Assembly (NCBI GenBank): GCA_003136675.1
Contig: PLFE01000044.1
Coordinates: forward strand, 1 to 54,920
DNA length: 54,920 nt
Source of the DNA: Bryobacterales bacterium
GTDB taxonomy: Bacteria > Acidobacteriota > Terriglobia > Bryobacterales > Bryobacteraceae
Direction: 5' to 3'
This document shows, in pieces, positions 6,755 through 22,857 of the stretch. A program made the translations under genes and the position numbers. How positions within the stretch are numbered: the first letter of the stretch is position 1; each line of letters opens with the position of its first letter. The notes below the pieces were generated by a model. That model was not told the origin of the DNA. It saw only the letters and a program-made list of their open reading frames with translations, and ran no database searches.

Positions 6755-6902
6755 GCGCTTTTATCTCTTTCCCCGGCAGTCACTTAGCTAAATGCAGCAC
6801 GAATTATTCCCCTCCTCCGCGATAGCTTTGTGAATGAGAGAGTTGACCGGGTGGCCGGACCGTGAACTTTGCGGACAACTTAGGCTCTCTCGGGGAGGCT
6901 TT

Positions 6903-7151
6903 ATGGATTCCAGGAAAACTGAAGTGCCGCTTAAGCCAGAGGACAGGTCAGAGGAAATATGGCAAGCAGACATCTTTGAAAAGCAGGAGACGTTAGTGAG
7001 CAAACTAATCGACCGATTCCTGAGTGAGGCGAGCGACCAAACGGCGAAGATATCGATTGCCGAGTTGATCCGCCTGCTGCAATTCCAGCGAGAGATCGCG
7101 CAGGTGCGACCTGTGGACGTTGTCGAGGTGAGATGGATAGATCCACAGTAA
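6903..7151 (+). CDS. Small first gene of the phage cassette, function unknown
   Basis: 82 aa protein starting at the ATG at 6903, chosen because a strong GGGGAGG ribosome binding site sits just before it (6892-6898). A longer frame opens at 6834 but has no such site. The product is charged and helical, with an N-terminal acidic part and a segment rich in Leu/Ile (KISIAELIRLLQFQREIAQ). It overlaps the large terminase start by 19 nt and is therefore co-translated with it. The position directly before the large terminase is where small terminase subunits or DNA-packaging accessory proteins usually lie, but no helix-turn-helix was recognised, so that role is only a guess. Confidence 0.6.
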   Translation: MDSRKTEVPLKPEDRSEEIWQADIFEKQETLVSKLIDRFLSEASDQTAKISIAELIRLLQFQREIAQVRPVDVVEVRWIDPQ

Positions 7152-8440
7152 AAGATCCGATCATCGCGTACCGGGATATACCTTACAAACGTCTGGAGTC
7201 GCAGCAGAAGTTTCACGACTCCGAATCCCGGTTCAAAGGCTTTTCGGGACCGATCGGATCTGGGAAGAGTCAGGCGCTGGTGCAACAGGCGATCAAGCTG
7301 TGCATGAAGAATCCCGGCCGGACCGGGCTCCTCGGCGCTCCCACTTTCCAAATGCTTCGCGATGCAACTCAGAAGCCGCTCTTTGAAACCCTGGAACAAG
7401 CGGGCCTGTGTTTCAGCTTCAACAAGTCCGAGGGGGCTGTGCAACTGCAGGAATCGCGATCGACCATTCTTCTTCGATCGCTCGATGAATATGAGCATCT
7501 CAGAGGGACGAACCTGGCATGGTTCGGTGTAGACGAGCTCTCCTACACTCATGAGGCAGCCTGGCTGCGCCTGGAGGGGCGCCTGCGAGATCGCCGGGCC
7601 CCTCATCTCTGTGGGTTCGCGGCATGGACCCCCAAGGGGTTCGATTGGGTCTACCGGCGGTTCATCCAGGATCAGAGCGGCTCTTATGAAGTCATCCGGG
7701 CGAAGCCCTTTGAGAATACTCATTTACTGGAGGCTGTGCCCGATTTTTACGAAAGGCTGAGAAAAACCTATGACCCGCTCTTCTTCGAGCAGGAAGTGCT
7801 TGGCGAATACATCAATCAAAGCGGCGGGAAGGTCTACCGGAACTTCCTGCGCTCGACGCATCTGCGACCGTGCGAGATAGACGCGGGAAAGCCGCTCCTC
7901 TGGGCGCTGGATTTCAACGTGAATCCAATGTGTTCGATCATCGCCCAAATTGACGGCGGCAAAGCGCTGGTTCTCAATGAAATTGAGTTAGCCGACGCAA
8001 CAACCGAACAAGCGTGCGAAGAGTTCTCCGGACTCTATAAACAATACTTGCGCAACATCCGGATCTATGGGGATGCTTCCGGAAGCAATAGCCATTCGAC
8101 CGGCTCGTCGGATTATGAAATTATCCAGAAGTTCTTCAAAAGCCGTTTTGGACTAACACCGGTACAACGGGTACCGCAGAAGAATCCGTTGATTCGCGAC
8201 CGGGTCTCGTTGCTGAATGCGAAGCTGTTGAATATGGATGGAGAAACTAATCTTTTCGTCGATCCGAAGTGCAAGGGACTTATCGCGGACTTTGAGGAGC
8301 TGAGTTACAAAGAGGGCTCCATGATTCCCGATAAAGAAAAGGATTCCAAGCGTTCGCACCTGTCCGACGCTCTAGGGTATCTGCTGTGGCAGGAATTTCG
8401 GTCCGCTCCTATCGAGCCGGAGAAAGTGCGTATTTTCTGA
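7133..8440 (+). CDS. Phage terminase large subunit (DNA-packaging ATPase/nuclease)
   Basis: Motor that cuts concatemeric DNA and pumps it into the prohead; 435 aa, normal size. Walker A is GPIGSGKS at residues 39-46; Walker B is LAWFGVDEL at about 126-134, with the acidic pair DE. The C-terminal nuclease half begins around LLWALDFNVNPMCSII and contains GDASGSNSHSTGSSDYEII and, near the end, SHLSDALGYLLW, each carrying acidic residues expected of the RNase-H-like fold. A GAGGTGAG site precedes the ATG. It overlaps the small gene before it by 19 nt, and its stop overlaps the portal ATG (TGATG at 8438-8442). Both enzymatic halves look intact, which argues for retained packaging function. Confidence 0.93.
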   Translation: MDRSTVKDPIIAYRDIPYKRLESQQKFHDSESRFKGFSGPIGSGKSQALVQQAIKLCMKNPGRTGLLGAPTFQMLRDATQKPLFETLEQAGLCFSFNKSEGAVQLQESRSTILLRSLDEYEHLRGTNLAWFGVDELSYTHEAAWLRLEGRLRDRRAPHLCGFAAWTPKGFDWVYRRFIQDQSGSYEVIRAKPFENTHLLEAVPDFYERLRKTYDPLFFEQEVLGEYINQSGGKVYRNFLRSTHLRPCEIDAGKPLLWALDFNVNPMCSIIAQIDGGKALVLNEIELADATTEQACEEFSGLYKQYLRNIRIYGDASGSNSHSTGSSDYEIIQKFFKSRFGLTPVQRVPQKNPLIRDRVSLLNAKLLNMDGETNLFVDPKCKGLIADFEELSYKEGSMIPDKEKDSKRSHLSDALGYLLWQEFRSAPIEPEKVRIF

Positions 8441-9870
8441 TGACAACAGGGTCCGGTAGCAACGGTTTCATTACACGGGAACATCCCGAGTACGCGCGCA
8501 CTCGTCAGAGCCGGCGCATGTACCGGGATCTGTATGAGGGCGGAGAACGGTTTAATTCGAACGCCTCTTACTACCTCGTGCGTCGGCACAAGGAGCCGAA
8601 CGATATCTATTTTGAGCGGCTCTTGCGGGTGTTCTATCAGAACTATGCCGGCTCCATTATCGACTGGTACACGGCGACGTTGTTCCGGCGCGAGCCAGTC
8701 CTCCAATTCAGCGGAGACAATGAAGACGGCAAGGAGTTCTTCAACCATTTCGTGCAAGACTGCAATCGGCGAGGAACAAAGCTATTCGAGTTTTTCCGGC
8801 GCGCCGTTTCGGACGCTCTGGTGTATGGAAAGTCTTATATTGCGGTAGACTTCCCTTCCTCCGGCGGACCGGCCTATAGCCGAGCGCAGGAAGACGAGGC
8901 GGGTCTATCGAGAGCTTACCTGGTGAACTACTCGGCCGATGAGGTGATCAACTGGTCCTATGATGAGTTCGGTGTTCTCGATTGGATCGTAATTCGAACC
9001 GCTACTGTCAAGCAATCGAGCGTTCGAGACGAATCCTGGAAGACTCATACGCGCTGGATTTACTACGATCGCGAAAGCTTTGAAGTTTACGCCAGCGAAA
9101 CGGCGGCCGCCGGCGGAAATGGATCGCCGGAGCTGGTAGCGTCTGGCCCGCATGCGCTATCGCGCCAGAAGAAGGTTCCTATCTTTGAGCTTTCAGTCAC
9201 CGAAGGGCTTTGGTTGATGAACAAGGTTTCTCTGCTTCAACTGGAGCACTTCAACAAATCAAATGCTCTGGCGTGGGCTCTGACAATGGGGCTTTTCGCG
9301 GTTCCGGTGGTGTATTCGGACCGCGAGTTCGCTCAAATCATGGGTGAATCCTATTTCATTCAGCTTGGGGCTCAAGATAAGTTCGGATGGACGGAGCCGG
9401 AAGGGCATGTCTACCAGATCGCCGCCGACAACCTGGTCAGTCTCAAGGACGAGATCTACCGCGTCTGCTATATGAATAGCGAGATAAGCGGCGGAAAAGG
9501 CGGGGCAAACCAGAGCGGGTTGAGCAAGGCCTGGGACTTCAGTGTGACCGAAGAGATTCTCCGGTCTTACGGTGACGTAGTGAAGGATTCCGTCCAGGAG
9601 GTCCTAACGGCCATTTCGGAGGCAAGGCAGGACGGGATTCAAATCGATGTCTCCGGAATGGATGAATTCGATATCCAGAGCTTTGCGGACGAAGTTCAAG
9701 ACGCGGCCAGCGTACTCGCGCTGCAGATTCCATCGGAAACGGTGAAGGGTCAGCTATACAAGCGAGTGGCGCTCAAGTATCTTAGCGACGCGCGTCAGAA
9801 CATAAAATCGCAGATCGTCGATGAGATAGACGAAGCTCTCAAGAAGCCGATACCGGCCGAAACGAACTAG
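8440..9870 (+). CDS. Phage portal protein (DUF4055-like)
   Basis: Portal proteins form the dodecameric DNA channel at one vertex of the head. 476 aa from the ATG at 8440, which overlaps the terminase stop (TGATG); the same frame is open upstream to 8386, but that part lies inside the terminase gene. The N-terminus has the pattern HPEY...RDLYEGGERFNSNASYYL followed by ERLLRVFYQNYAGSIIDWYTATLF, typical of portals that pair with P22-like coats. A central part FRRAVSDALVYGKSYIAVDFP and a late helical part follow. It is assigned from family pattern plus its place between the terminase and the scaffold/coat genes. Lengths in this family are about 450-500 aa, so it appears complete. Confidence 0.82.
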   Translation: MTTGSGSNGFITREHPEYARTRQSRRMYRDLYEGGERFNSNASYYLVRRHKEPNDIYFERLLRVFYQNYAGSIIDWYTATLFRREPVLQFSGDNEDGKEFFNHFVQDCNRRGTKLFEFFRRAVSDALVYGKSYIAVDFPSSGGPAYSRAQEDEAGLSRAYLVNYSADEVINWSYDEFGVLDWIVIRTATVKQSSVRDESWKTHTRWIYYDRESFEVYASETAAAGGNGSPELVASGPHALSRQKKVPIFELSVTEGLWLMNKVSLLQLEHFNKSNALAWALTMGLFAVPVVYSDREFAQIMGESYFIQLGAQDKFGWTEPEGHVYQIAADNLVSLKDEIYRVCYMNSEISGGKGGANQSGLSKAWDFSVTEEILRSYGDVVKDSVQEVLTAISEARQDGIQIDVSGMDEFDIQSFADEVQDAASVLALQIPSETVKGQLYKRVALKYLSDARQNIKSQIVDEIDEALKKPIPAETN

Positions 9871-9878
9871 GAGGAAAT

Positions 9879-10439
9879 ATGGACGACCAGAAATCGCAGC
9901 CGGAGCTGGATGTGCAGGCCTTGGTGCAGCGCGCGATCGCCGAATACGTGCGACAGGACTCGGGTAGAAGGGAGCCGGCGTTGAAAGCCGAGCTTCAGGA
10001 GGAGAGAAGGAAGCGCGAGGCTCTGGAAAGACGTCTCAACCAAATGGCGGAAGAGAATAGCCGCAGCCGGGAGATTGCGGACCAGGCCGAGCGGAGTTCG
10101 AAGATTCGAAGTGAGCTGCAATCACTTGGAGTGACAAAGATCGACCTGGCCTACAAGGCCGTCCAGGGAGACATCCAGCGCACTGAGGACGGACGCCTCA
10201 TGGCCAAGAACGAAAACGGGGAATTTGGAATCAAGGAGTACCTCACTAACTTCGTTCACGAAAACCCGGAGTTTCTTCCCGCGAGAATTCCCGGCGGAAC
10301 AGGTTTGACGACAGGACAACGCCAGAGCGCTGGCCGCGGCGCCGTCGACACGGACATGATTTCACCCAGGATGAGCAGCGAAGACAAGGAACGCGTGCGG
10401 CAGGAGATACTCCGCGTTACCTCAAGAGATGGGCACTAG
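9879..10439 (+). CDS. Putative capsid scaffolding protein
   Basis: 186 aa, highly charged and helical. Residues 25-70 form a predicted coiled coil (ALKAELQEERRKREALERRL onward). A middle part contains GVTKIDLAYKAVQG and the C-terminus is basic/acidic, ending in a short helix (SSEDKERVRQEILRV). An AGGAGG site lies just before the ATG. Helical scaffolds immediately upstream of the coat gene are the rule in tailed phages with P22-type or HK97-type coats. No protease motif is present here or elsewhere in the cassette, so a non-cleaved scaffold is the best reading. Identification rests on position and composition, not on recognised sequence similarity. Confidence 0.65.
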   Translation: MDDQKSQPELDVQALVQRAIAEYVRQDSGRREPALKAELQEERRKREALERRLNQMAEENSRSREIADQAERSSKIRSELQSLGVTKIDLAYKAVQGDIQRTEDGRLMAKNENGEFGIKEYLTNFVHENPEFLPARIPGGTGLTTGQRQSAGRGAVDTDMISPRMSSEDKERVRQEILRVTSRDGH

Positions 10440-10469
10440 AGAAGTAGTTACAAAGAAAGAAGGAGATAA

Positions 10470-11381
10470 ATGGCAGCAATTACCTCAGCAAACGTAGCGA
10501 GCGCGATTGTAAAACTTGTGGCGGCCGATGCTTTGCCCGCCCTTGTGGGTAACCTGATTATGGGTAACCTGGTGAATCGCGATTACGAGCCTGTTCTGGC
10601 GAATGCGGGCGACACGGTCAACGTGCCGATTCCGCCGTCGTTAGTGGCAAACAACATCGCGGAAGGCGGTACGGTCCAGACGCAAAATCCGAATCTGGGC
10701 AATGCGCAAATCGTTCTGAACACTCACGCTGAAGCGACGTTTCAGATTCCGGATGTGACTCGTGTTCTGGCCGTGCCGGACCTGCTAAAGGTCTACATGG
10801 AACCCGCGGTTATCGCTATCGCGGAGAGCATCGAGACGAGCCTTTTGAATACATACGCTGGCTTCACGGCCAACGCGCCGCTGGGAACGTCAGGCACTCC
10901 AATCACGGAGGCGACGATTGACGCTGCGGAAACAGCGCTCTTTGCCGCAATGGTGCCGGCGAGTGAAGCGAAGTATTTGGTCGTTGACCCGAATACTTAC
11001 TCTCAGATGCGCCAGATCTCGCGCTTCAGTGAGTATCAGACCGCCGGAGAAGCTGGGCTGAGAGCGATCATCGACGGCACGTTCGGGAAGCTGAAGGACT
11101 TCTTCGTATTCAGGTCACAGTACGTGCCCTATACGGGGAGTGCGCCGCTGGCGACTCATAACCTTGCCTTTACGAAGAACGCGCTTGGTTTGGTAATTCG
11201 CCGGCTGCCTCAACCGTTGCCCGGTACAGGCGCGATTGCGGAGTACGCGGACTTGGGGAATTTCGGGATGCGCGTCACGATGAGCTATCAGCCGAACACC
11301 CTGGCGCAGCAGTTCACAGTGGATGTGCTCTATGGTTGTGCGGTTCTTCGGAACAACTTCGGCGTACAGGTAAATAGCTAG
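10470..11381 (+). CDS. Major capsid protein, P22-coat-like HK97 fold
   Basis: 303 aa shell protein. It begins MAAITSANVASAIVKLVAADALPALVGNL-like and then has the P22-coat-type segment VNRDYEPVLANAGDTVNVPIP, with the later features LVVDPNTYSQMRQI and GTFGKLKDFFVFRSQYVPY. It has no long N-terminal delta-domain, consistent with the absence of a prohead protease gene. The ribosome binding site AAGGAG is the best in the cassette, as expected for the most abundant particle protein. The gene is followed by four 13-bp tandem repeats and then a good terminator hairpin (11436-11475), so its transcript dose may differ from the tail genes downstream. Confidence 0.85.
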   Translation: MAAITSANVASAIVKLVAADALPALVGNLIMGNLVNRDYEPVLANAGDTVNVPIPPSLVANNIAEGGTVQTQNPNLGNAQIVLNTHAEATFQIPDVTRVLAVPDLLKVYMEPAVIAIAESIETSLLNTYAGFTANAPLGTSGTPITEATIDAAETALFAAMVPASEAKYLVVDPNTYSQMRQISRFSEYQTAGEAGLRAIIDGTFGKLKDFFVFRSQYVPYTGSAPLATHNLAFTKNALGLVIRRLPQPLPGTGAIAEYADLGNFGMRVTMSYQPNTLAQQFTVDVLYGCAVLRNNFGVQVNS

Positions 11382-11390
11382 GAACCGAGA

Positions 11391-11442
11391 GCTTCACAAG
11401 GCAGCTTCACAAGGCAGCTTAACAGTGCAACTTAACAGGGCA
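11391..11442 (+). repeat. Four tandem 13-bp repeats between coat and connector genes
   Basis: Units at 11391-11403, 11404-11416, 11417-11429 and 11430-11442. The first two are identical (GCTTCACAAGGCA); the third and fourth are variants (GCTTAACAGTGCA, ACTTAACAGGGCA). They lie wholly in the intergenic gap; the last unit supplies the left arm of the terminator stem. Function unknown. Confidence 0.85.
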
Positions 11443-11475
11443 ACTACGCAACGTGGTTGCCCTGAATCTTTTTCT
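11436..11475 (+). terminator. Rho-independent terminator after the major capsid gene
   Basis: A perfect 9-bp stem CAGGGCAAC (11436-11444) / GTTGCCCTG (11456-11464) with an 11-base loop is followed by AATCTTTTTCT. It sits inside an otherwise continuous structural operon, so it is more likely to attenuate downstream tail expression relative to the coat gene than to end the operon completely. Confidence 0.75.
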
Positions 11476-11486
11476 AAGGACGTGGT

Positions 11487-11807
11487 ATGGACTTAAAAGG
11501 TTATTTCAAGAAAATCCGGGACGTCGAGGCTACAATTCCGGCGCCTTACGTGTTGATTGCGAGCCTGGAGACCCCGGAGGGCGGAAAGGAAGGGACCTTC
11601 ACGGAGGTCTCGAGGAGACTGGCTGCGCGAATCATCGCCGAGAGCCGCGGCCGGCTCGCGACGGAGGCGGAGTCAGAATTGTTTCGGGAAAAGCAGGCCG
11701 AAGCGTTGCGGGCGGCTCAGGCTCTGGCAGCGGCCCAAAGGATGCAATTCACTTTGGTGCAACCGATTGATAGCCGGCCAAAGCCGGCGCGGGGACCTAA
11801 GGACTAA
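11487..11807 (+). CDS. Small head/tail-region phage protein, function unknown
   Basis: 106 aa. The N-terminal half is mixed (KKIRDVEATIPAPYVLIASLETPEGGKEG) and the C-terminal half is a long Ala/Glu/Arg-rich helix (ELFREKQAEALRAAQALAAAQRM). It has an AAGGA site 6 bases before the ATG and ends 5 bases before the next gene. By place (between coat and connector) it may be a head-decoration or head-completion component. I do not recognise a family. Confidence 0.65.
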   Translation: MDLKGYFKKIRDVEATIPAPYVLIASLETPEGGKEGTFTEVSRRLAARIIAESRGRLATEAESELFREKQAEALRAAQALAAAQRMQFTLVQPIDSRPKPARGPKD

Positions 11808-11812
11808 ATCAA

Positions 11813-12580
11813 ATGGCTCTATTCCAGGACGGACCGCCTTCCGCGATCGACGATCTCGTTGAGCAGGACTCGTTCCTGCTTTCGGTTGCCGGCACTGAAG
11901 GCATAAACGTCACGAACAAGCTCTCCCTCGCTTATAGCGAGCTTCAAATCGAACTCACGACAATCTACGGCCGCGAGGCGTCCATCTATGCGCCGGTCCT
12001 TGGGGAAGCCCCTCTCGACACGGATCATACGGCCGTTACGCCCGCTCTCAAACTCTGGCACACGTATCGCTCGCTCGACCTGGTCTATCGCGACGCTTAT
12101 TTCAACCAGTTAAATGATCGATATCAAGGCAAGTGGGCCGAATTTCAACGTCTTGGGTTGCTGGCTCGAACCTCGTTCATTGATACGGGCGCCGGGTTGG
12201 TGATAGATCCTCTGCCCCAGGCCGCCGCCCCCGTGATCACGTTTGAGGCAGCATCTCTGCCGGGTGGTACGGCGTATTTCACGGTCACGTTCGTAAACAC
12301 TGAGGGTGAGGAGAGTTCCCCCTCCGTCGTCGTCGAGAGCACTGCGCCGCAGGGGACCGCCGCGGTCGTGGAAGCGGCAACAGCGCCGTCGAATGCAGTG
12401 GGATGGAACTTGTACGGGGGTACCTCGCCCGGCACGCTGTCCCTGCAAAACAGCACGCCGAATGCGATTGGGTCGACTTGGCAATTTATTCTTCCCGGAG
12501 TGGCCGGCGGCGTCGCGCCCGGTACCGGGCAGTCACCAAATGTCACGAGGGATTTACCGCGAAGGATCATGCGAGGCTAA
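11813..12580 (+). CDS. Probable head-tail connector protein with an Ig/FN3-like C-terminal domain
   Basis: 255 aa in two parts. Residues 1-130 are helical (NKLSLAYSELQIELTTIYGR, then LKLWHTYRSLDLVYRDAYFNQL...RYQGKWAEF), as in gp6-type connectors that bind the portal. Residues about 140-235 form a beta-rich module (GGTAYFTVTFVNTEGEESSP, then GWNLYGGTSPGTLSL) resembling an FN3/Ig-like domain. The same kind of module recurs in the 1310-aa tip protein. Ig-like extensions on virion proteins usually decorate the surface. The connector role is inferred from order (after coat, before tail completion and tail tube). Complete and in frame. Confidence 0.6.
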   Translation: MALFQDGPPSAIDDLVEQDSFLLSVAGTEGINVTNKLSLAYSELQIELTTIYGREASIYAPVLGEAPLDTDHTAVTPALKLWHTYRSLDLVYRDAYFNQLNDRYQGKWAEFQRLGLLARTSFIDTGAGLVIDPLPQAAAPVITFEAASLPGGTAYFTVTFVNTEGEESSPSVVVESTAPQGTAAVVEAATAPSNAVGWNLYGGTSPGTLSLQNSTPNAIGSTWQFILPGVAGGVAPGTGQSPNVTRDLPRRIMRG

Positions 12581-12582
12581 AA

Positions 12583-13071
12583 ATGAATCTTGCTAGCACG
12601 GTCGCATCCACTCTCAGCAGCATTCTTACCGCGCCTTCAAATGGAGACATTCAACTCAATACCATCGTCGCAACCCTTTCACCGGTCGCCCCGGTTGCGC
12701 TTGGCTCCGTCGTTACGGGAAACGCCTCCGCCGATCTGAACGAGAAAAGTCTTATCCTGAGCTATCCGACGGTTACCATCTTTTGCGAAAAGCTGAGTAA
12801 CACCTTGAAGGAGAAGTTCCGAACTTTCTCCGGATCCGCGGAGACCGTAATCGAAGTGCGACAGTCGCAAGACCAATTAGAGACCATTCAGGCGGCGCTG
12901 GAGACTTATGTCTCCGCCGTCTGTCAGATCTTGGACGCATCACGGGGCGACTGGGGAAACGGAATGTTCTATCCCGGCGGGTACGTGGTCACCTTTGGGC
13001 CGGTAAAACATGGCGGTAAGAACTTTATACAAACAGGACGTATCGTCCTGAGCGTCGATTTAATTGTCTGA
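12583..13071 (+). CDS. Probable tail-completion/tail-terminator protein
   Basis: 162 aa from the ATG at 12583, two bases after the preceding stop; the frame is open upstream to 12403 but that stretch lies inside the previous gene. The content is mixed alpha/beta, with SLILSYPTVTIFCEKLSNTLKEKF early, RQSQDQLETIQAALETYVSAVCQIL as a helix and a C-terminal beta part (GYVVTFGPVKHGGKNFIQTGRIVLSVDLIV), the usual outline of a tail-terminator or head-closure protein placed just before the tail tube. Assigned from position and outline only. Confidence 0.55.
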   Translation: MNLASTVASTLSSILTAPSNGDIQLNTIVATLSPVAPVALGSVVTGNASADLNEKSLILSYPTVTIFCEKLSNTLKEKFRTFSGSAETVIEVRQSQDQLETIQAALETYVSAVCQILDASRGDWGNGMFYPGGYVVTFGPVKHGGKNFIQTGRIVLSVDLIV

Positions 13072-13109
13072 GCAAACAGCACATTCCAATATTGCAGATC
13101 AGGTGAAAC

Positions 13110-14270
13110 GTGGCATACATATCTTCAAATAACAACCGCTGGTACTGCCAGCTTGAGGCTTCCTACGGTCAGGTTCCCGGAGTTGTTGCGGCGAACCGTT
13201 TTCCGGCTGTGTCGATGACCGCGCAACAAAAGATCGAAACGCCGGCTCGTCAGGATAAGACCGGGACTCGAACATTTTCCGGGGCGCTGGCCAGCATGCG
13301 TAAGCAGACCCAGTTCGACCTCACGACTTACATGACCTCGTGGACCACTGGTTCAATGCCAGGATACGGACCTTTGTTTCAAGCGACTCTTGGTGCGAGT
13401 CCGCTGTATTTCGCGGGAGGAACTGCGACCGCGTCGTCAACCACTTCCTATGTCACGTTCGCGAGCCCCCACGGGCTGGTAGTTGGGCAGGCGATCACAT
13501 ATCAGGGTGAGATGCGGTTCGTTTCAAGCGTGGAAAACACGACGGCTGTAATGGTCAACGCTCCTTTCTCCGCTATTCCAAATGGCCCGGTAGGTCAGAC
13601 TGTAACGTTCCTTCCGACTACTGAACTTCCAAGCGTCAGCATCTTCGACTATTGGGATCCTTCAACCTCCGTGCAAAGGCTACTCTGCGGCTGCGCCGTA
13701 AATCAGATGATGGTGTCAGTTAACGCGAACTATCAACAGTTTCAGTTTAAAGGGATGGCCCAGGACGTGCTCGACTCCAGCAGTTTCACAGCGGGTTCCG
13801 GGGAGCTCACCGCATATCCAGCCGAACCAGCCCTCGGCGCCCCCCCCACTACGATCGTTCCCGGACACCTGGGACAAGCGTGGTTAGGAGCGTCCGCCTC
13901 TCAGTTTTTGACGCTAACGAGTGCGAACGTGAGCTTAAGTAACGCGCTTGATATGCGTACGGAGGAGTTTGGAAGCATCCTGCCCAGGGCAATCAATCCG
14001 GGCGCGCGAACTGTCTTGCTGGACATGGAGATTTACGCCCAAGACGATTCCGCTACCGTGGCACTCTATCAGGCGTCGCGACAGCGAGCGCCCATCATAG
14101 CGGGATTTCAAATGGGACAGACGGCCGGCCAGCTGTTTGGCGTGTACATGAAGAGTGTAGTGCCTGAAGTGCCTCAATATAGCGATAAAGACTCGCGATT
14201 GATATGGCAGTTTAAAGGTTCGCAGGCGCAAGGGCAAGGCGATGATGAGCTCGCGGTCGCATTTGGATAG
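13110..14270 (+). CDS. Major tail tube protein
   Basis: 386 aa, beta-rich, beginning MAYISSNNNRWYCQLEASYGQVPG, a pattern common to siphophage tail-tube proteins that open with the residues lining the tube. A hydroxyl-rich insertion around residues 105-170 (ATASSTTSYVTFASPHGLVVGQ) looks like a surface domain. The C-terminal half contains LSNALDMRTEEFG and MEIYAQDDSATVALYQASRQ. It lies directly before the frameshifting tail chaperone, the standard position of the tube gene. The length is larger than minimal tube proteins (about 150-250 aa), consistent with an inserted domain. Confidence 0.72.
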   Translation: MAYISSNNNRWYCQLEASYGQVPGVVAANRFPAVSMTAQQKIETPARQDKTGTRTFSGALASMRKQTQFDLTTYMTSWTTGSMPGYGPLFQATLGASPLYFAGGTATASSTTSYVTFASPHGLVVGQAITYQGEMRFVSSVENTTAVMVNAPFSAIPNGPVGQTVTFLPTTELPSVSIFDYWDPSTSVQRLLCGCAVNQMMVSVNANYQQFQFKGMAQDVLDSSSFTAGSGELTAYPAEPALGAPPTTIVPGHLGQAWLGASASQFLTLTSANVSLSNALDMRTEEFGSILPRAINPGARTVLLDMEIYAQDDSATVALYQASRQRAPIIAGFQMGQTAGQLFGVYMKSVVPEVPQYSDKDSRLIWQFKGSQAQGQGDDELAVAFG

Positions 14271-14272
14271 CC

Positions 14273-14638
14273 ATGACCTACGAGAGCTTTGAGGTCAGGG
14301 AGTCTAAGTGCTCCCCGGGTGTCCAGTTTGTTGTCAACCGAATGTCGTTCGGCCGGCGGGTGGAGCTAATGCGGCTGATTCGGGGACTTGCGCCTCGGTG
14401 GGAGTGCTTCCATGCGGGCGCTGGGAAGTCCGATGAAATTGAGGCCGGACTTTTGTCAGCGGAGATCGACCGGCTTTACATTGAGTGGGGATTGAAGGAA
14501 GTGCACGGGCTGGAGATCGACGGCCAAACGGCGGGTCCTCTGTCTTTGCTGCTGGCTGGTCCGGAAGAACTTTTCCTCGAGGCGTTGGGGCATGTGAAAG
14601 CCGCCTGCCGTCTCTCGGGGCCCGAAGCAAAAAACTAA
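14273..14638 (+). CDS. Tail assembly chaperone, short (gpG-like) form
   Basis: 121 aa helical protein: it begins MTYESFEVRESKCSPGVQFV and continues FGRRVELMRLIRGLAP and IDRLYIEWGLKEVHGLEIDG, ending in SGPEAKN-stop. It starts 2 bases after the tail-tube stop. In long-tailed phages the gene after the tube encodes a chaperone made in two forms, the longer by a programmed -1 frameshift near the end. Here the last sense codons are GCA AAA AAC followed by TAA, an ideal A AAA AAC slippery heptamer in the correct frame (14629-14635). The short form is the product of ribosomes that do not slip. Confidence 0.78.
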   Translation: MTYESFEVRESKCSPGVQFVVNRMSFGRRVELMRLIRGLAPRWECFHAGAGKSDEIEAGLLSAEIDRLYIEWGLKEVHGLEIDGQTAGPLSLLLAGPEELFLEALGHVKAACRLSGPEAKN

Positions 14639-14985: not shown

Positions 14986-14994
14986 GAGTTGAAT

Positions 14995-15354
14995 ATGGCC
15001 GCCTTCCCAATTCTCAAGACCGGCGCGGTAGCGCAATATCCTCTCAAAACCACGTTTAACTACACGGCCGACATTGTCTGGTTCCTGGACGGATCCGAAC
15101 AACGGTTTCGCAATTCTCCCTCCGTGTTGCACCAATGGGAGATTGATCTAGCCAAACTTGACGAACAAGAAATGGCATCCATCGAGCAATTCTTCCTTGG
15201 AAATGAGGGGCCCGCGGAGTCTTTTGCATTTACCGATCCTTCAACTACCACGGTGTATCCGAACTGCTCCGTGTCTAATAGCGAGCTCGCCTTGATTTTC
15301 ACCGCCGCTTTATCTGGAAAGACGACTATTGTAATTCGGGAGAACAGGACCTAA
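14995..15354 (+). CDS. DUF2460-like distal tail protein, short paralogue
   Basis: 119 aa from the ATG at 14995, with AGGAG six bases upstream. The sequence starts MAAFPILKTGAVAQYPLKTT and keeps a compact beta-rich pattern: FLDGSEQRFRNSP, WEIDLAKLDEQEMASIEQFF and ESFAFTDPSTTTVYPN. These match the pattern of DUF2460-type distal tail proteins (the RcGTA g12 position). The next gene repeats the same pattern, so the two are tandem paralogues. The family call is from remembered pattern and would need a profile search. Confidence 0.6.
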   Translation: MAAFPILKTGAVAQYPLKTTFNYTADIVWFLDGSEQRFRNSPSVLHQWEIDLAKLDEQEMASIEQFFLGNEGPAESFAFTDPSTTTVYPNCSVSNSELALIFTAALSGKTTIVIRENRT

Positions 15355-15357
15355 TAA

Positions 15358-16158
15358 ATGCTTGTATTTCCACAACTCGCGACCGGGGCAACTGCTCAAT
15401 ACCCGATTCGGAGGCGTCGATCGGAGCGGGCGATCCTCAATCTTAGTCAGGACGGCTCGGTGATCGCCCTCTGGGACCAAACGGCAAGCCAAATAAAATG
15501 GGACCTCCGTTTCGGCGGACTCACGGACACGGAAGCGGCAAGTCTCACATCGTTTTACGAACTCTGTGAAGGCCCGCTTCAGCCTTTTCTTTTCCTGGAC
15601 CCGGCAGGCAATTTGTTCGCATATAGCGAGGACTTTACTCAGCCCGTGTGGCAGGCCAGCAGTCTTCTTTCTTTGACTCCAGGAATTACGGACCCTTACA
15701 ACACGACACGTGCGACCCAAGTGGAAAACAGCTCGCTGGGTGCCTTGACGCTAACCCAGACACTAGCGATACCCGGCTTCACTCCTTGCGCGCTCAGCGT
15801 CTACCTTCGAAGTGACTCCGCCACCGAGGCAACGATCACGCGTTCGGATGGTTCGAATGTCGACTCGATAGTTCTTCAGACCGGCTCGGCATGGACCCGC
15901 TTTAGCCTGAACACTGCGTTTACGAGCAGCATCAGTACGTCCTGCGACTTTTCTTTGGAACTCCCCGCTGGCCAGACCCTTGACGTTTTTGGATTTCAGG
16001 CGGAGCCTCAACCGCTGCCCGGAACATATGTGATGACCTCCGCGCAGACAGGTATTTTTCCCAACACTCGTTTCGATGGGAACCAAATCGTAGTAACAGC
16101 AACAGGGCCAGGCGAAAGCAGCGTGGCCATATCACTTCTTTCGCCGTCAGCACAGTGA
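15358..16158 (+). CDS. DUF2460-like distal tail protein with carbohydrate-binding-like C-terminus
   Basis: 266 aa. Residues 1-90 repeat the outline of the previous protein (FPQLATGATAQYPI, SQIKWDLRFGGLTDTEAASLTSFYELCEGPLQPFLFLDP). From about residue 90 it carries a beta-sandwich module opening NLFAYSEDFTQPVWQ with YLRSDSATEATITRSDG and SLELPAGQTLDVFGFQAEPQPLPGTYV. This N-x-x-YSEDF-x-x-x-W opening is typical of phage fibre/spike domains related to carbohydrate-binding modules and suggests surface glycan binding at the tail tip. It begins three bases after the preceding stop and ends seven bases before the hub gene. Confidence 0.62.
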   Translation: MLVFPQLATGATAQYPIRRRRSERAILNLSQDGSVIALWDQTASQIKWDLRFGGLTDTEAASLTSFYELCEGPLQPFLFLDPAGNLFAYSEDFTQPVWQASSLLSLTPGITDPYNTTRATQVENSSLGALTLTQTLAIPGFTPCALSVYLRSDSATEATITRSDGSNVDSIVLQTGSAWTRFSLNTAFTSSISTSCDFSLELPAGQTLDVFGFQAEPQPLPGTYVMTSAQTGIFPNTRFDGNQIVVTATGPGESSVAISLLSPSAQ

Positions 16159-16164
16159 AACCCG

Positions 16165-19100
16165 ATGCTTCCTCTCTTTCAAGCTAAAGAACAACCGATT
16201 TCCGATATACCGCTCCTGCTGTTCGACTGCATCTTCGCAGACGGCACGGTCGAGTCATGGAGCACGCACGCGGCCACCGTAAATGGGAATGTCTATGCGC
16301 CTCGCGTCCTGAAGCAGAACGTGTTCCAGATGCAGATAGGATCCGATCTTGGCGTCGATACGCTACCCAGGATCACCATCGAACTCGCCAATGCAGATTC
16401 GCTGCTTTCTGAAATCGAGAGAAGCGTGGGAGTCAAAGGGGGTCAACTGACCGTCTCAATGGTCTTCTACAGTTTCGCCAACGGCGGCCCATCGAGTACG
16501 GTTCAAGTGCTTTTTAAGGGTATATTAGATCCGCCCGAACTGATAACCGAGACGAACTTCAGGATAAGTGCAAGTAACAGGCTATCGCTGCAGAGAGTAA
16601 ACCTGCCTGAAGTTCGGATTCAAATGCGATGTCCGTGGACCTTCCCGACTACCTCAACGCAAAGGCAAGAGGCGGTTGCGGGAGGTGTTGCCGGTCCTTA
16701 CTCGCTTTTCTATAACTGTGGATATTCGCCGGATTTTACAGGTGGTGTCGGTTCTTTTGCCCCCGACGGTACTCCCTATTCGTCGTGCGCCTACACAAGG
16801 TCTGATTGCGTGTCGCACGGCATGTTCAGCGTTGACTCCTTACTGCGGCCAACGGCGCGTTTCGGAGGGATCGAATTTGTTCCTTCCACAATTGTTGTAC
16901 GCAGTTATGGCGAGAAAGGCAGCCACTTCTCGCCGATAGATGACAACCTGGCCATCTACAACGACTTCATACCGATGATTTACGGAACGGGTTGGTTTGC
17001 CCCAGGGATCGTCTTTCTGCGAAACGACGGTAATTTGACCCACATGGAGTTAGTGTTGGGTATTGGCCAGATCCAGGATGTACAGAAAGTTCTAGTCAAT
17101 CAAATTGAAATTCCGGCCGGGTCGCCAGGGAAGAATATGACGGGTACAGGCTGGTACAACCTCGTAAGTCCTGGAACGCGCAACGGCGCTTTTAATCTGG
17201 ACTTCACAGACTCCAACGGAAATCCACTCGGCGATCCCTACGGAAGCATCGCGTTTTTGTCCGTGGTTGTTCCGAACCTGATCAATGACGGCAGTAGCCT
17301 TCCGCAAGTGCAAGTTCTGTTGGATGGGTTGCTTGTACCACAGTATGGGGCGGACGGCACAAACCTCGGCACGAGCTTTTCGAACAATCCCGCGTGGGTG
17401 ATTCTCGATCTGCTCCTGAGCATCGGCTGGGCGCTGACAGAAATGGACATGAGTTCGTTCGCGTCCACCGCGTCGTATTGCGCCGAGCAGATTGCAACGA
17501 CCGATCTGTTCGGCAACCCAGTGATGACGCCGCGCTTCCAATGCAACCTGATTCTGAAGAATCGACGTTCGGCTTCGGATGTAATCCGCGGCATACGCAA
17601 CGCGTGCCGCCTTTTCCTGCGTTATGGATCAAATGGCCTACTTCAGCTCTCCGTGGAGAACTCAATCGCGCTCCAGCAACCAACTCTGCCCGCAAACAGC
17701 AACGCGGCTGAGGAGTTGAACGGCGGGTGGCCCGCGTATGAGTTCGGCGACGGTACGAATGGGACGACGGGAATTGCGCGAACCGCGAGCGGCGCGTCGA
17801 CAGTAAAGTTGTCAGCCCGGTCCTCGGCGGATACGCCCAATCGGTTTGCCGCTGAGTTTCAGGATGCCTTCAACGCTTACCAGCAGGACAGTCTGTCGAT
17901 TGTCGATTCAGATGACGTGAGCTTGACGGGCCAGGAAATAACGAGCACGACGCCTGTTTTGGGCCTGCCGCACTTCGACCAGGCGGCGCGTATTTTACAG
18001 TTCTTCCTTTCAAAAAGCGTCCTCGGCAACACCACCATCGAGTTTCAAACCAGTGTCAAGGCGCTGGGACTTTCTCCCGGCGACATAATCGCGGTTACTT
18101 ATGCGAAAGAGGGTTTGGAGCGGCAGCCATTTCGAATTACACGAATCCAACCGGGACCAAACTACAGAACCGCCACGATCACTGCTCAATGGCACGAAGA
18201 TACGTGGTACTACGATACAAATGGCCAGACCACCGCGGACGGGAGCAATCAGAATCCATTTGCGGGGGTAGGAGTTCCCAGACCGCTCGGCGGAGTGGTG
18301 CCTGACCAGAACGGCGTCTTGCAATTCGGAGTGGTCGAGACATGGTCCCAAGCGCCCGACGGAACAGCAACAGTTTCTGCCGCTGTCAGCTTCGCCGCCC
18401 CTAACGCGAGTGAAACGGGAGCTCCAAATTCGCCACTTATCTCGTTAGTCGCAACCGTCACGAGCACCGGCGGCACACTCGCCGGCGGTCAGGATCTTTA
18501 CTACGCGGTGACGAGCATAGGAACCGGCGGTTCGGAGAGCAGCCTGTCGTTTCTGGTGCACGCCTCAGTGCCGCCGGGTACGGCGACTAATGCGGTTACG
18601 CTCGCCGGTCTGAGCTTCCCAACCCTGGCGACTGCCTTTTCGATTTATCGGGGCGAGACTCCCAGCAACCTGTACGAGATCGCATCCGCATTGCCGTTGG
18701 TGAACCTGTTTGTCGATTCCGGGTTCCCGAATACCACCGTCTTGCCGCCCGATCCGAACTACGACCACGCGGACTTTTATTGGCGAGTCGAACTACAACC
18801 CGAAGTCCAGGCGACGATAGCAAGCGCGACATCGATCGGCTCTCAAATTCTTGAGATGATCCCCACAGCCTACGCGGGTATGGTGGTTCGAATTACGGGA
18901 GGCACGGGCACCGGGCAAGAGAGAACGGTGAGCACGAACACCATCACCACACTTACATTGACCACAACGTGGGATATCACGCCTGACGCCACCAGCTCCT
19001 TTGTTGTTGCTCCGAGTACCTATCAATTTGGATCCACGACCCGAAGCAGTCCCGCCCAGTTCACGATTCCAAATCAGTCGGGTGCGATTGTTGAAATCTC

Positions 19101-20097
19101 CGGGCGAGCGGCAAACTGCAATGGCATCGAGGCACCCTATTCTATCTCGCCGGTTACCAGATGGGTGATTGGAGGGGCCGGCATCAAGAATGTCGATTCG
19201 GCCCCTGCTCCCGCGCCGGTCTTTGGCATCAGTCCCGGCTATAGTGGAGGTACCCTGGTCTTCGGCGAACTCGGGTTTTCCGACTTTACAAACGTTTCCA
19301 CGGTAACTGCTGGAACCTACCAACTCTTCTACCTCGACGAAATGAATTTGGTAGCGGCCTGCCTTCTTACTACGGCGATTGCGCCTACCGACATCCAGCT
19401 AACCATCAGCGTGCCTTTCCAGGGTACTCTTCCACTGTTTCTTCTCATTGACAGCGAAGTAATCGGCCTCACAAGCATAGATAACACGGGGATGTTACTT
19501 ACCTGCGTCCGGGGAGCGCACGGCACGACTGCGGCGTCACATGCTGCCGGGGCCTCGATCTTCGCTCTGCTGCAGCAAATCTTCATCGTGCCTTTCGCCA
19601 AGAATTTCTTTGGCAGCCCGGCCAGCGGAAGCTGGAGCTTTCCGGTAATCTTCCCGAACGTGCGGCTCGTCAGTGCGGAACTCTTTGTAACTAATTCTCA
19701 AGGCGCGAGCCCAACGGCGTCCACCAACTTCACCAGCTCGCAGGACGGTTCGCTCCGCACGCTTTCCGGTGGCCAGCTTTCATTCCAGATAGGCGGTTTC
19801 CTCGCCATACAGACCGGCGCCGCGCCAGATGTCATCCTTGATGCAAATAAGGCGGTTCGCGATATCTACGCGGTCGTGAAACAAGCTCCCAGCGGGGCCG
19901 AAATTGCGATTAACCTGAACTTAAATGGAACGTTCTACTGTGCGCTGGCGATTCCGGACGGATCGACGACGATGACAGTCGCGCTGGATGGCGCTTCTCT
20001 CCCTCCGTTGCTGGCGCAGGATCTCCTGAGCATTGACATAACCGGTGTTGGGCTGACCACTCCCGGCAGCGATCTAACAGTAATTATCCGAGTCTGA
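16165..20097 (+). CDS. Giant tail-tip protein: Fe-S gpL-like domain fused to gpJ-like hub
   Basis: 1310 aa. Residues 1-220 resemble the tail-tip protein gpL/DUF2163: an N-terminal beta part (DIPLLLFDCIFADGTVESWS) and four cysteines, C156, C185, C208 and C215, in CPW, NCGY, SSCAY and SDCVS. The last three spacings (x22 and x6) equal those of the lambda gpL [4Fe-4S] ligands as I remember them. Residues about 300-690 look like the gpJ/phage-tail_3 hub (DLLLSIGWALTEMDMSSF, NLILKNRRSASDVIRGIRNACRLFLRYGSNG, LSPGDIIAVTYAKEGLERQPFRI). Residues 755-870 hold an FN3/Ig-like module (YYAVTSIGTGGSESSLSF, FSIYRGETPSNLYEIA), then further beta domains. In RcGTA and lambda these functions are on separate proteins. 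No peptidase motif was noticed. Confidence 0.75.
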   Translation: MLPLFQAKEQPISDIPLLLFDCIFADGTVESWSTHAATVNGNVYAPRVLKQNVFQMQIGSDLGVDTLPRITIELANADSLLSEIERSVGVKGGQLTVSMVFYSFANGGPSSTVQVLFKGILDPPELITETNFRISASNRLSLQRVNLPEVRIQMRCPWTFPTTSTQRQEAVAGGVAGPYSLFYNCGYSPDFTGGVGSFAPDGTPYSSCAYTRSDCVSHGMFSVDSLLRPTARFGGIEFVPSTIVVRSYGEKGSHFSPIDDNLAIYNDFIPMIYGTGWFAPGIVFLRNDGNLTHMELVLGIGQIQDVQKVLVNQIEIPAGSPGKNMTGTGWYNLVSPGTRNGAFNLDFTDSNGNPLGDPYGSIAFLSVVVPNLINDGSSLPQVQVLLDGLLVPQYGADGTNLGTSFSNNPAWVILDLLLSIGWALTEMDMSSFASTASYCAEQIATTDLFGNPVMTPRFQCNLILKNRRSASDVIRGIRNACRLFLRYGSNGLLQLSVENSIALQQPTLPANSNAAEELNGGWPAYEFGDGTNGTTGIARTASGASTVKLSARSSADTPNRFAAEFQDAFNAYQQDSLSIVDSDDVSLTGQEITSTTPVLGLPHFDQAARILQFFLSKSVLGNTTIEFQTSVKALGLSPGDIIAVTYAKEGLERQPFRITRIQPGPNYRTATITAQWHEDTWYYDTNGQTTADGSNQNPFAGVGVPRPLGGVVPDQNGVLQFGVVETWSQAPDGTATVSAAVSFAAPNASETGAPNSPLISLVATVTSTGGTLAGGQDLYYAVTSIGTGGSESSLSFLVHASVPPGTATNAVTLAGLSFPTLATAFSIYRGETPSNLYEIASALPLVNLFVDSGFPNTTVLPPDPNYDHADFYWRVELQPEVQATIASATSIGSQILEMIPTAYAGMVVRITGGTGTGQERTVSTNTITTLTLTTTWDITPDATSSFVVAPSTYQFGSTTRSSPAQFTIPNQSGAIVEISGRAANCNGIEAPYSISPVTRWVIGGAGIKNVDSAPAPAPVFGISPGYSGGTLVFGELGFSDFTNVSTVTAGTYQLFYLDEMNLVAACLLTTAIAPTDIQLTISVPFQGTLPLFLLIDSEVIGLTSIDNTGMLLTCVRGAHGTTAASHAAGASIFALLQQIFIVPFAKNFFGSPASGSWSFPVIFPNVRLVSAELFVTNSQGASPTASTNFTSSQDGSLRTLSGGQLSFQIGGFLAIQTGAAPDVILDANKAVRDIYAVVKQAPSGAEIAINLNLNGTFYCALAIPDGSTTMTVALDGASLPPLLAQDLLSIDITGVGLTTPGSDLTVIIRV

Positions 20098-20100
20098 GAC

Positions 20101-22857
20101 ATGCCTGAAAATCTACAGAAGCTAACGCCCGATCGCGATCTGATCTGTTACTTTCAAATTCCGTCTGCGATTGCGGCATTAAGTTCCACAAGTGCCAGCG
20201 GGTTCACGGTCTCAGGAAGTTGGCGGCAGCAATCTGATTGGGCAGTCATCGAATGGAATCGCGATAACACCTTTGAGCATCCGCTGCTTCGTCCTCTTCC
20301 GGACGGCGATTTAAGTGGACTCACGCTGACTTATCAAGAGACGCGGAGCAGTTGCATTCCGATAGATTCTGAGTTGTACCCAACCGTCGACTGGCCGTAT
20401 CTGCGTTTTTGGATTGATACTGGATCGGGAGACCTGTTCCGGCGGGTGAGCCTTCTACCGCTCGCTGTTCCATCCGCCGGAGTTTTCGCACCCGCTTCGA
20501 CAACCTTTGTCTTGAGCGGCAGCGCCACACCCGGCGATGCGATCGAATTGGAGTGGAACGGATCGGAGCATTACAACTATACGATTGCCGACGGTGACAC
20601 GCTCGTGAGCGCCGTGTCCGCACTTGCTGCGATCATCAACTCCATCTCGACTACGGCGCTCGCCACGGCCAACGCCTCCGCGATTACGCTTACCTTGACC
20701 AATCCATCGTTGGGAGAAAATGCAAATCGCCTGGGGGCTTACGGAACCGTATTCGGCGCGGCCACTGAAATATGGCAGCCGGAATTCCAGCAGTTCAGCA
20801 ATGGCACCTCACCCAGCGCCTGGCAAGTGACGATTCCGTTTGGAGCCTTGACGGACGCGGATACCGGCGAAGTGTTTTCGGCGACGAACGTCCGAAAGAT
20901 GCGCTGGACTTATGCGGCAGACCTTCAACCCGCAACGTTCGCGCGCACTGAATTTCAGGTGGTGGTGTCCAATTGGACCGTAACCGGTACAAATCAGGCG
21001 TATAGCGTCGCGGGTCCGGGTTCACATCGAATCGAGGATGATTCAACAATCCTCTCTTATACGGGAACGTGGTCTCCATCCGCCGACAACCGCGGCAATT
21101 TCTCCGGTGGATCGATCGCATACACGGTAGCGCCGCTTAGCGCGGTGGCGTGCTCTTACACGGAGCCGGCTTCGCACCAGCTTTTCCTCGGTACGCGTTA
21201 CACTCCCGTCGGAGGTCTCATTACAGTTACAGTGGATGGAGCGACGCAAAACTTCAATTTGAATCTGTCGGACGATGAGTTGGTCAGAATCCTTCTCGGA
21301 ACGTTTGCCGAGGGAACGCACCGGGTGAGCGTGGAATTCACGGGAAGTCAGGGAACTTACTTTTACTTTGATTTTATTGAGATTGCTTATCCTTCAGTAG
21401 ATCTCCCGGATTTATCGACGAACAACCTGCTCACACTGGCAACGGATTGGGATACTTATCATTCCATCGCATTGGCGCCGGAGCGTACCGCCTGGTTGAT
21501 TCAGAAGCTGGGTTTCACGGGACGCGCCAATCATTATCAGGGGGCATTGTGGTTCTTTGAGCTCGTTCGGGAAGGCCAGATTTACGCGGCGGCGACAGTC
21601 ACATTTGGGGGTGTATCGTCGATCAGTGTTCAAACCACGCTGATTGTCGATTCGACCATCATGACTCACCTTCATCTTGAAGGTGATACTCCCGCGACGG
21701 TTGCAACTTGGTTCGTTCTGCAGATCAACAGCGGATCGACGGGTATTTGGGCAAGTGCTTCCGGTGATGTCTTAACTATTACCGCCCGCGCGATGGGGAC
21801 AGAGGGAAACTCCATCACTCTTTCGGTGAGCGTGGTGCAGACAGCGCTCAGTGCATTTACCGCGGAAACGAGCGGACCGACTCTTGCAGGTGGGGTTGAT
21901 GGCTCGCCAAGCGGCGTTCCCTTTCAGGATGCGGGTACGGCTATCGGCTGGCGAACCGACCTCAGTGCGGGAAACGCGCTGAACCGCGCCGCGATCGACT
22001 GGTGCACCAGCTTCTTTACCGCGCTGACTGGCTATGGAATCCAGGCAACCGCGGCATTCAGTACGGAATTGCAGTTCGTTGATCCTTCTCTCTCGGCGGG
22101 GATGGCGCAGCGATACTATAACCAGGGTCCCGTGATTCTTAACACGCCGGCCATCCAAACGAACTTTTCACCCACCAGCCTGTCGTTTTGGCAAAGCGCA
22201 CACCTTGAGATGGCGCAGATTTTAGTCACCGCCGGCCAAGCGCCCTATCTGCAATTTGGCGAAGTTCAATGGTGGTACTTTCCAGATGCTGAGCCTAGCA
22301 TGCCATTCTACGATGCTTACACCCAGCAGCAGTTCCAAAACACTTACAACCGGCCAATCTCGTTGATTTCCGGCAATACCGTTGACCCGTCGAGCTTTCC
22401 TCAAGAGTCTGTGTTCCTTCCTGGCTTGATTGGGCTCTTTACTTCCGCGATTATCTCTTACGTGCAGGCCGTTCTACCGCAGACGCAGTTTGAAGTGCTA
22501 TACCCGCCCGACACGAATGCTTATCCATTTACCGAGGTCGCAAATCTTCCCTCAAACTATTGGACGCCCGCGGCGCTTGCGTGCTTCAAAACGGAGAACT
22601 TCACCTATACCGGTGACCGCAATCTCGCTCAGGCGCAGGAATCAGTCAGTTTGCCGGGCACGCTGAGCTTTCCTCCAGCCAAGTCCAGCCACCTGGTGGG
22701 AATTAGCGACTACACGACGCCATGGGCCAAGGAAGCTGGGATGGCGATCGCTGAGGGCGACGAATCGGTTGTCCTTTTTGCGCTCGATCAGTTCTGCCTC
22801 ATCGGATACCCCGCCGATTGGTACGACAATATTCAGCGCGCGATCTCAATGGCTTAG
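20101..22857 (+). CDS. Large phage tail protein with TIM-barrel-like C-terminal half
   Basis: 918 aa, last gene of the cassette, 3 bases after the hub gene. Residues 1-130 form a distinctive domain (SGFTVSGSWRQQSDWAVIEW, HPLLRPLPDGDLSGLTLTY, YPTVDWPYLRFWID). The middle is beta-rich, with a sheath-like stretch (GTEGNSITLSVSVV...TLAGGVDG). The C-terminal 300 residues look like a glycosidase-type TIM barrel: repeated beta strands followed by acidic residues (AFSTELQFVDP, LQFGEVQWWYFPD, QFEVLYPPDTN, VLFALDQFCLIGYP). It could be a tail fibre, a receptor-degrading spike or a non-contractile sheath-like protein; RcGTA carries a TIM-barrel domain in its megatron. Function is not settled by the sequence alone. 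Confidence 0.6.
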   Translation: MPENLQKLTPDRDLICYFQIPSAIAALSSTSASGFTVSGSWRQQSDWAVIEWNRDNTFEHPLLRPLPDGDLSGLTLTYQETRSSCIPIDSELYPTVDWPYLRFWIDTGSGDLFRRVSLLPLAVPSAGVFAPASTTFVLSGSATPGDAIELEWNGSEHYNYTIADGDTLVSAVSALAAIINSISTTALATANASAITLTLTNPSLGENANRLGAYGTVFGAATEIWQPEFQQFSNGTSPSAWQVTIPFGALTDADTGEVFSATNVRKMRWTYAADLQPATFARTEFQVVVSNWTVTGTNQAYSVAGPGSHRIEDDSTILSYTGTWSPSADNRGNFSGGSIAYTVAPLSAVACSYTEPASHQLFLGTRYTPVGGLITVTVDGATQNFNLNLSDDELVRILLGTFAEGTHRVSVEFTGSQGTYFYFDFIEIAYPSVDLPDLSTNNLLTLATDWDTYHSIALAPERTAWLIQKLGFTGRANHYQGALWFFELVREGQIYAAATVTFGGVSSISVQTTLIVDSTIMTHLHLEGDTPATVATWFVLQINSGSTGIWASASGDVLTITARAMGTEGNSITLSVSVVQTALSAFTAETSGPTLAGGVDGSPSGVPFQDAGTAIGWRTDLSAGNALNRAAIDWCTSFFTALTGYGIQATAAFSTELQFVDPSLSAGMAQRYYNQGPVILNTPAIQTNFSPTSLSFWQSAHLEMAQILVTAGQAPYLQFGEVQWWYFPDAEPSMPFYDAYTQQQFQNTYNRPISLISGNTVDPSSFPQESVFLPGLIGLFTSAIISYVQAVLPQTQFEVLYPPDTNAYPFTEVANLPSNYWTPAALACFKTENFTYTGDRNLAQAQESVSLPGTLSFPPAKSSHLVGISDYTTPWAKEAGMAIAEGDESVVLFALDQFCLIGYPADWYDNIQRAISMA

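Follow-up and report, generated by a model that had tools for sequence, protein, structure and literature searches.

A vertically inherited head-tail cassette of the Bryobacterales: a probable domesticated siphovirus-type particle and candidate gene transfer agent

The question raised by this locus is whether a cluster of phage-type head and tail genes in an acidobacterial chromosome is a prophage, a decaying relic, or a particle that the host has made its own. The locus lies on contig PLFE01000044.1 (assembly GCA_003136675.1) of a Bryobacterales bacterium, a stretch of 54,920 nucleotides here called the window. Open reading frame (ORF) calls and a profile search place a single compact head-tail cassette, encoded on one strand, at 6834-22857 (+). 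The reading that we consider probable, from sequence comparison, is a clade-wide domesticated siphovirus-type particle and candidate gene transfer agent (GTA) of independent origin, with a predicted function. That the cassette is a host-domesticated element appears very likely; that it would transfer DNA in those lineages that retain the large terminase (TerL) we rate at slightly better than even, and its identity as a GTA is possible. The alphaproteobacterial type I gene transfer agents, RcGTA among them, form the Rhodogtaviriformidae (PMC9662315). Our literature search, which left subscription journals and preprints mostly outside its reach, found no description of a GTA in Acidobacteriota or of a domesticated head-tail particle in Bryobacterales.

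The cassette is spread through the order and, in a sample of the phylum, was not found beyond it. Its coat gene was detected in 200 of 257 genomes and 73 of 84 genera of Bryobacterales, nearly always as one copy, and TerL (about 50 to 58% identity in the matches listed) in 160 of the 200 sampled genomes of the family, representing 67 of 76 genera, mostly as a single copy. In a sample of 396 genomes from across the phylum, no match fell outside family f1 at E<=1e-10, while the scan of the order added coat matches from families f2 (two genomes) and f3 (one genome). Named records with the cassette are almost all Bryobacterales, Bryobacteraceae, or Solibacteraceae. In 40 of the 40 relatives' loci that were fetched, including one cut by a contig end (L047), the genes lie on one strand in a fixed 12-gene order.

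This distribution was compared with host descent through trees of rpoB (1211 columns) and of nine cassette proteins from 28 genomes. Of 25 splits, 12 were shared by the two trees; over 2000 relabelings, the number shared by chance averaged 0.22 and never exceeded 3. Eight of the 12 supported rpoB splits were recovered, with support in both trees, and a single supported rpoB split was contradicted. As a single host marker, rpoB supports co-descent and does not measure exact co-descent. The cassette evolves with the host genome and is inherited vertically. As a separate matter, rpoB in the window's own assembly (G000:C76) is broken over several frames, and the assembly therefore contains indel errors; the reading frames of the cassette are open.

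Per-gene ratios of nonsynonymous to synonymous substitution (dN/dS), a check that the first-pass annotation of this DNA had proposed, were estimated by the Nei-Gojobori method on close pairs, none overlapping another, drawn from every fetched locus. Medians for eight genes ranged from 0.07 to 0.15 (TerL 0.09, portal 0.07, coat 0.09, tail tube 0.10, hub 0.12), indicating purifying selection. The Walker A/B residues of TerL and its C-terminal DFN / H..DA residues, the putative nuclease, do not vary among 20 copies taken from many genera; because this invariance accompanies purifying selection on TerL, packaging appears to be selected in most lineages. Ten of 504 extracted genes contained a stop, some of these probably being extraction artefacts at start sites, and a few cassette copies may be damaged by internal stops in single copies. 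Low dN/dS together with vertical descent argues for a selected host function.

The features of the cassette, followed by two downstream neighbors that lie outside the particle genes, are as follows.

6834-7151 (+): TerS-like small ORF, 105 amino acids (aa), overlapping the TerL start, with an internal ATG at 6903
7133-8440 (+): large terminase TerL, 435 aa (phrog_2, 5e-38; Pfam Terminase_6N)
8386-9870 (+): portal (phrog_145, 2e-45)
9879-10439 (+): scaffold-like protein, from a weak match (phrog_206, 0.006), its position, and conservation across 41 loci
10470-11381 (+): P22-type major coat protein, 303 aa (Pfam P22_CoatProtein PF11651, 62.9 bits)
11487-11807 (+): small protein conserved at its position, with no profile match, putatively for head completion or decoration
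11813-12580 (+): connector or head-tail joining candidate a, position conserved, no convincing family match
12403-13071 (+): connector or tail completion candidate b, position conserved, no convincing family match
13110-14270 (+): major tail tube protein, 386 aa, T5/P74-26 type, non-contractile (phrog_290, 9e-9)
14273-14638 (+): tail assembly chaperone, upstream frame, from position and conservation
14629-14635 (+): slippery heptamer A AAA AAC for a -1 frameshift, the stop codon of the first chaperone ORF directly after it
14485-14985 (+): chaperone extension frame, entered by the -1 shift, its ORF starting upstream of the slip
14989-15354 (+): DUF2460-like distal tail protein, gene 10 (PF09343, 4e-7, just below the curated Pfam cut-off)
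15358-16158 (+): second DUF2460-like tail tip protein, gene 11 (PF09343, 7e-5, just below the Pfam cut-off; phrog_2913)
16165-20097 (+): gpJ-like baseplate hub or tip, 1310 aa (phrog_31, lambda J, 1e-24; Phage-tail_3 PF13550; solved lambda J structure, 2e-7)
20101-22857 (+): 918-aa distal protein with an N4-sheath-like TIM barrel, an optional module (PF23845, 56.8 bits)
22894-24102 (+): flank, Wzt-type ABC ATPase (PF14524), also adjoining the cassette in other genera
24356-25528 (+): flank, M24 peptidase (PF00557), also adjoining the cassette in other genera

The ORFs and profile matches agree with the head-tail cassette and gene list first read from the letters, except that the start then given, 6903, is the internal ATG of a first gene whose ORF begins at 6834. 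ORFs of about 92 aa that end about 48 nucleotides past the TerL start occur at 202 of 300 loci (by automatic clustering, with a few spurious members); the TerS-like ORF had no profile match, and its role is deduced from its position. Coat is the most conserved gene of the cassette, with 72 to 88% identity between genera. An AlphaFold model of the tail tube (predicted local distance difference test score, pLDDT, 87) gave the tail tubes of T5, P74-26, and SH-Ab15497 as its best solved matches in Foldseek, with E values of about 1e-14. The frameshifting chaperone proposed by the first-pass annotation is borne out by a slippery site, AAAAAAC or AAAAAAT, in nearly all relatives, loci devoid of TerL included. 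The last gene, detected in 23 of 40 relatives, encodes a TIM-barrel domain in common with the phage N4 tail protein gp64, and neither it nor the first ORF matched a defense system.

In the window, the cassette is preceded by a histidine kinase and a response regulator and followed by the Wzt ABC transporter, the M24 peptidase, and a PGK-like gene, in line with the two-component system and housekeeping genes reported earlier. In G014, the other species sampled from the window's genus, the cassette has the same neighbors: u376, u431, and the kinase/regulator pair, here inverted, on one side, and the Wzt, M24, and PGK-like genes at the opposite end. About a third of relatives from across the genera have Wzt and M24 next to the cassette, and the two-component pair was not seen beside it in other genera; a flanking locus common to all genera was considered and rejected, since the flanks differ beyond Wzt and M24. 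We found no tRNA in the flanks and no phage genes in the flanks checked. Among the proteins scanned, namely, those of the cassette and its nearest flanks, with no dedicated search of the whole window, there was no integrase, repressor, lysis, or replication gene, as the earlier reading had stated, and no regulator was found in the cassette. Because no genes for integration, replication, or regulation were found with it, the cassette should be unable to move itself from this locus. Patchy presence and flanking integrase, repressor, and att repeats had been named as observations that would point to a prophage: presence is not patchy, and neither of the two genes was seen in the scanned flanks; att repeats were not specifically searched. 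Order-wide presence in near-single copy, vertical descent, purifying selection, and a shared locus in two species of one genus strongly support the earlier proposal of a domesticated particle with a P22-type coat in an acidobacterium.

What kind of particle is this? RcGTA is encoded by a vertically inherited head-tail cluster of about 15 kb, with TerL and a TerS-like gene, a short tape measure, DUF2460 and Phage-tail_3 tip proteins, and no mobility genes. Like it, the cassette is compact, kept vertically over a large clade, equipped with TerL and a TerS-like gene, in most relatives with a short tape measure, and with DUF2460 and Phage-tail_3 tip proteins, and it carries no mobility genes. Unlike RcGTA, it belongs to another phylum, has a T5-type tail tube, has lost TerL in several lineages, and is a putative transfer agent. 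The HK97-type coat and prohead protease of the Rhodogtaviriformidae are also missing, the coat matching PF11651 and the profile search returning no protease gene in the cassette. More general GTA traits are present, in that the cassette is a caudovirus-type head-tail cluster in the host chromosome and has no replication or integration genes of its own among the proteins scanned. PBSX is likewise a chromosomally fixed head-and-tail particle that does not propagate itself; it keeps lysis and regulation genes and has a contractile tail, unlike the cassette, with its non-contractile T5-type tube and no lysis or regulation genes found. Nor is this a tailocin, in which the tail is kept and the head lost: coat and portal are among the most conserved genes.

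A phage cousin suggests where the cassette came from. Besides the cassette (on contig C9), genome G054 holds a second locus with the same gene order, a prophage (C157; L411, L379, L529). Its coat is 69% identical to that of the window, whereas TerL, hub, and tip are about 30% identical (TerL and J 31%). Read by eye, its genes include interspersed HNH genes and, before or after them, MazG-, DnaN-, SSB-, RusA-, and DnaG-like genes, and its tape measure is 944 aa long. In the cassettes, the gene at the tape-measure position usually has 180 to 300 aa (54 of 62 loci), about 220 aa. The cassette thus resembles a pared-down version of this lineage's particle module, and its tail is predicted to be shorter. 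We found no close relatives of the cousin's J/hub in IMG/VR.

These comparisons suggest the following model. A single acquisition of a siphovirus head-tail module, dating to the ancestor of Bryobacterales or earlier, would have been followed by vertical inheritance. The module would specify a small particle in which a P22-type head is joined to a non-contractile tail. If the tape measure determines how long the tail is, this tail would be shorter than the cousin's; at the usual 1.5 A per residue, about 220 aa would correspond to roughly 30 to 35 nm. The host may turn the operon on in some cells, where the capsid would assemble on its scaffold; in lineages that keep TerL, this enzyme and the small upstream protein would fill heads with host DNA by a headful mechanism. 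A short tail would be attached, and the particles would be released and delivered to kin cells that the J-like hub and tip recognize. Lineages devoid of TerL might fill the particle by means of another terminase or use it without DNA.

Several observations weigh against a GTA that works in this way throughout the order. In 10 genomes from six genera, the cassette extends from portal to hub with no TerL next to the portal: G103, G128, G145, and G174 (genus g55); G054:C9 and G102 (g54); G194; G050; G014; and G030, where a TerL fragment remains. All eight sampled g55 species have the coat, and a cassette-type TerL was found nowhere in their assemblies, the contig ending near the portal in four. 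In this one TerL-less clade where dN/dS was measurable, the closest pairs gave 0.02 to 0.04 for portal and coat and 0.04 to 0.09 for the scaffold. Since these values are low, the frameshift is kept, and the portals are 69 to 97% identical, the g55 cassette seems to have been long retained without a terminase of its own. We also rejected low dN/dS alone as proof of domestication because active phages show it too. A tape-measure gene is absent from the window, from G014, and from two related metagenome contigs, the gap between tube and DUF2460 genes being 690 to 760 bases in the window's group versus a typical value of about 1340; G030 lacks one as well. No lysis gene was found in the cassette. 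The first-pass description of the locus as intact thus stands for its compact order and not for the roughly 220-aa tape-measure gene that most relatives have. Its GTA reading is similarly divided: the TerL motifs, found in about 80% of family genomes, the TerS-like ORF, and the short tape measure fit, whereas the loss of TerL in six cassette-bearing genera and the absence of a tape measure in the window's genus do not.

Terminase genes of another kind are dispersed through many Bryobacterales genomes, as a stand-alone terminase ATPase ORF of 260 to 300 aa immediately followed by a small one of about 210 aa. Examples are the following.

L415:2989-4409 (G055:C88): stand-alone split terminase
L418:4289-5805 (G103:C4): stand-alone split terminase
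L435-L454 (G186, G148, G004): stand-alone split terminases

The family is multi-copy, with up to 17 matches in G186 and several copies at contig ends. The flanks examined contained no phage genes (RloB, AAA_21, sugar dehydrogenase, and an integrase-core transposase were seen), and the split terminase is possibly a mobile element. As a criterion for the presence of a terminase of any kind, phrog_2 was too broad and was discarded: its matches in g55 are these stand-alone genes, which in the flanks seen are not phage loci. A split terminase was present in 13 of 14 TerL-less cassette genomes versus 11 of 29 TerL-bearing ones (Fisher p 0.0008), a difference that is weak when counted per independent loss of TerL (5/6 versus 11/29, p 0.07). 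Within g1 and within g42, a split terminase occurs in the TerL-less species and in none of the sampled TerL-bearing ones.

The main alternatives concern how the terminase losses are read. It is conceivable, at odds that we place clearly below even, that what the order owns is a capsid-tail particle that can do without its packaging motor or have it replaced, being used without DNA or loaded by satellite-like split terminases. The first of these versions, rather unlikely in our judgment, is a domesticated particle with a DNA-independent function, such as a head-bearing bacteriocin-like or kin-killing device, protein delivery, or a decoy, in which TerL is optional and repeatedly lost at no cost. 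The six genera that have an otherwise intact cassette, among them the whole of g55 with its constrained portal, coat, and scaffold and its conserved frameshift, favor such a particle; against it, TerL shows invariant active-site motifs and as much purifying selection as its neighbors in the lineages that have it, and tailocin-type elements lose the very head whose coat is the best-conserved gene here. The second, packaging in trans by dispersed split terminases, perhaps belonging to mobile elements that use the particle as satellites do, is improbable. It draws on the genome counts, the pattern within g1 and g42, and the multiple and contig-end copies, and it is undercut by the weakness of the association per loss, by the lack of any single orthologous split terminase common to all g55 species examined, and by G050, which has no TerL and no member of the family.

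Two further explanations deny the cassette a host function. An ordinary prophage family, acquired repeatedly, would agree with the prophage cousin and its replication genes in G054 and with an earlier survey in which phage-marker regions of subdivision 3 Acidobacteria were counted as prophages (PMC5900883). This explanation is contradicted by vertical descent in the rpoB comparison, the fixed gene order, the near-single copy, the same locus within a genus, the lack of mobility genes among those seen, and the lack of any cassette outside the order, and the true prophage stands at another locus with only 31% identity in TerL and J; we regard it as very unlikely. Hardly more credible is a decaying relic without function. 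In genus g24, G177 (L407), G024 (L408), and G185 (L406) have TerL or TerL fragments without coat or hub, which amounts to cassette decay inside a single genus; in places, the last gene, the tape measure, or TerL has been lost; and the few stops, perhaps partly artefacts, could be read in the same way. Across the order, this view is contradicted by the low dN/dS medians, the conserved frameshift signal, and genes of full length throughout the family. The candidate GTA derived from a domesticated siphovirus thus remains our preferred reading, and the TerL-less lineages offer a natural experiment on the purpose of such particles. Bryobacterales are abundant soil Acidobacteria; if DNA transfer is true, it would mean an independent origin of GTAs in a major soil phylum.

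The cassette also bears on existing catalogs of phages. Eichorst et al. (2018) counted as active prophages those regions of KBS 96, Bryobacter aggregatus, and Solibacter usitatus that have capsid, portal, or terminase genes, and the available part of the paper does not recognize vertical inheritance (PMC5900883). Acidobacteria bacterium KBS 96 carries the cassette (L152), with TerL and a gap of a size to fit the tape measure; those regions may or may not include it. In a Sphagnum virome, one phage-like contig matched the genome of a member of the Acidobacteriaceae, and the authors of that study named GTAs as a possible fate of cryptic phages (PMC12142844). Two scans of IMG/VR returned at least 582 and at least 591 confirmed relatives, the contigs among the matches listed being no longer than 26.5 kb, and three contigs 99.9% identical to the window lie within the cassette (L249, L169, and L250). 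Most likely, hundreds of IMG/VR "virus" contigs are bacterial chromosome excised as provirus, an effect that matters for counts of soil viruses and for the prediction of their hosts. Finally, two public records labeled Nevskia soli (NZ_CAJCHS010000017.1, L089) and Arcobacter sp. (DYJN01000047.1, L168) carry a Bryobacterales cassette; their labels or binning are probably wrong, and the former corresponds to G014, in the window's genus.

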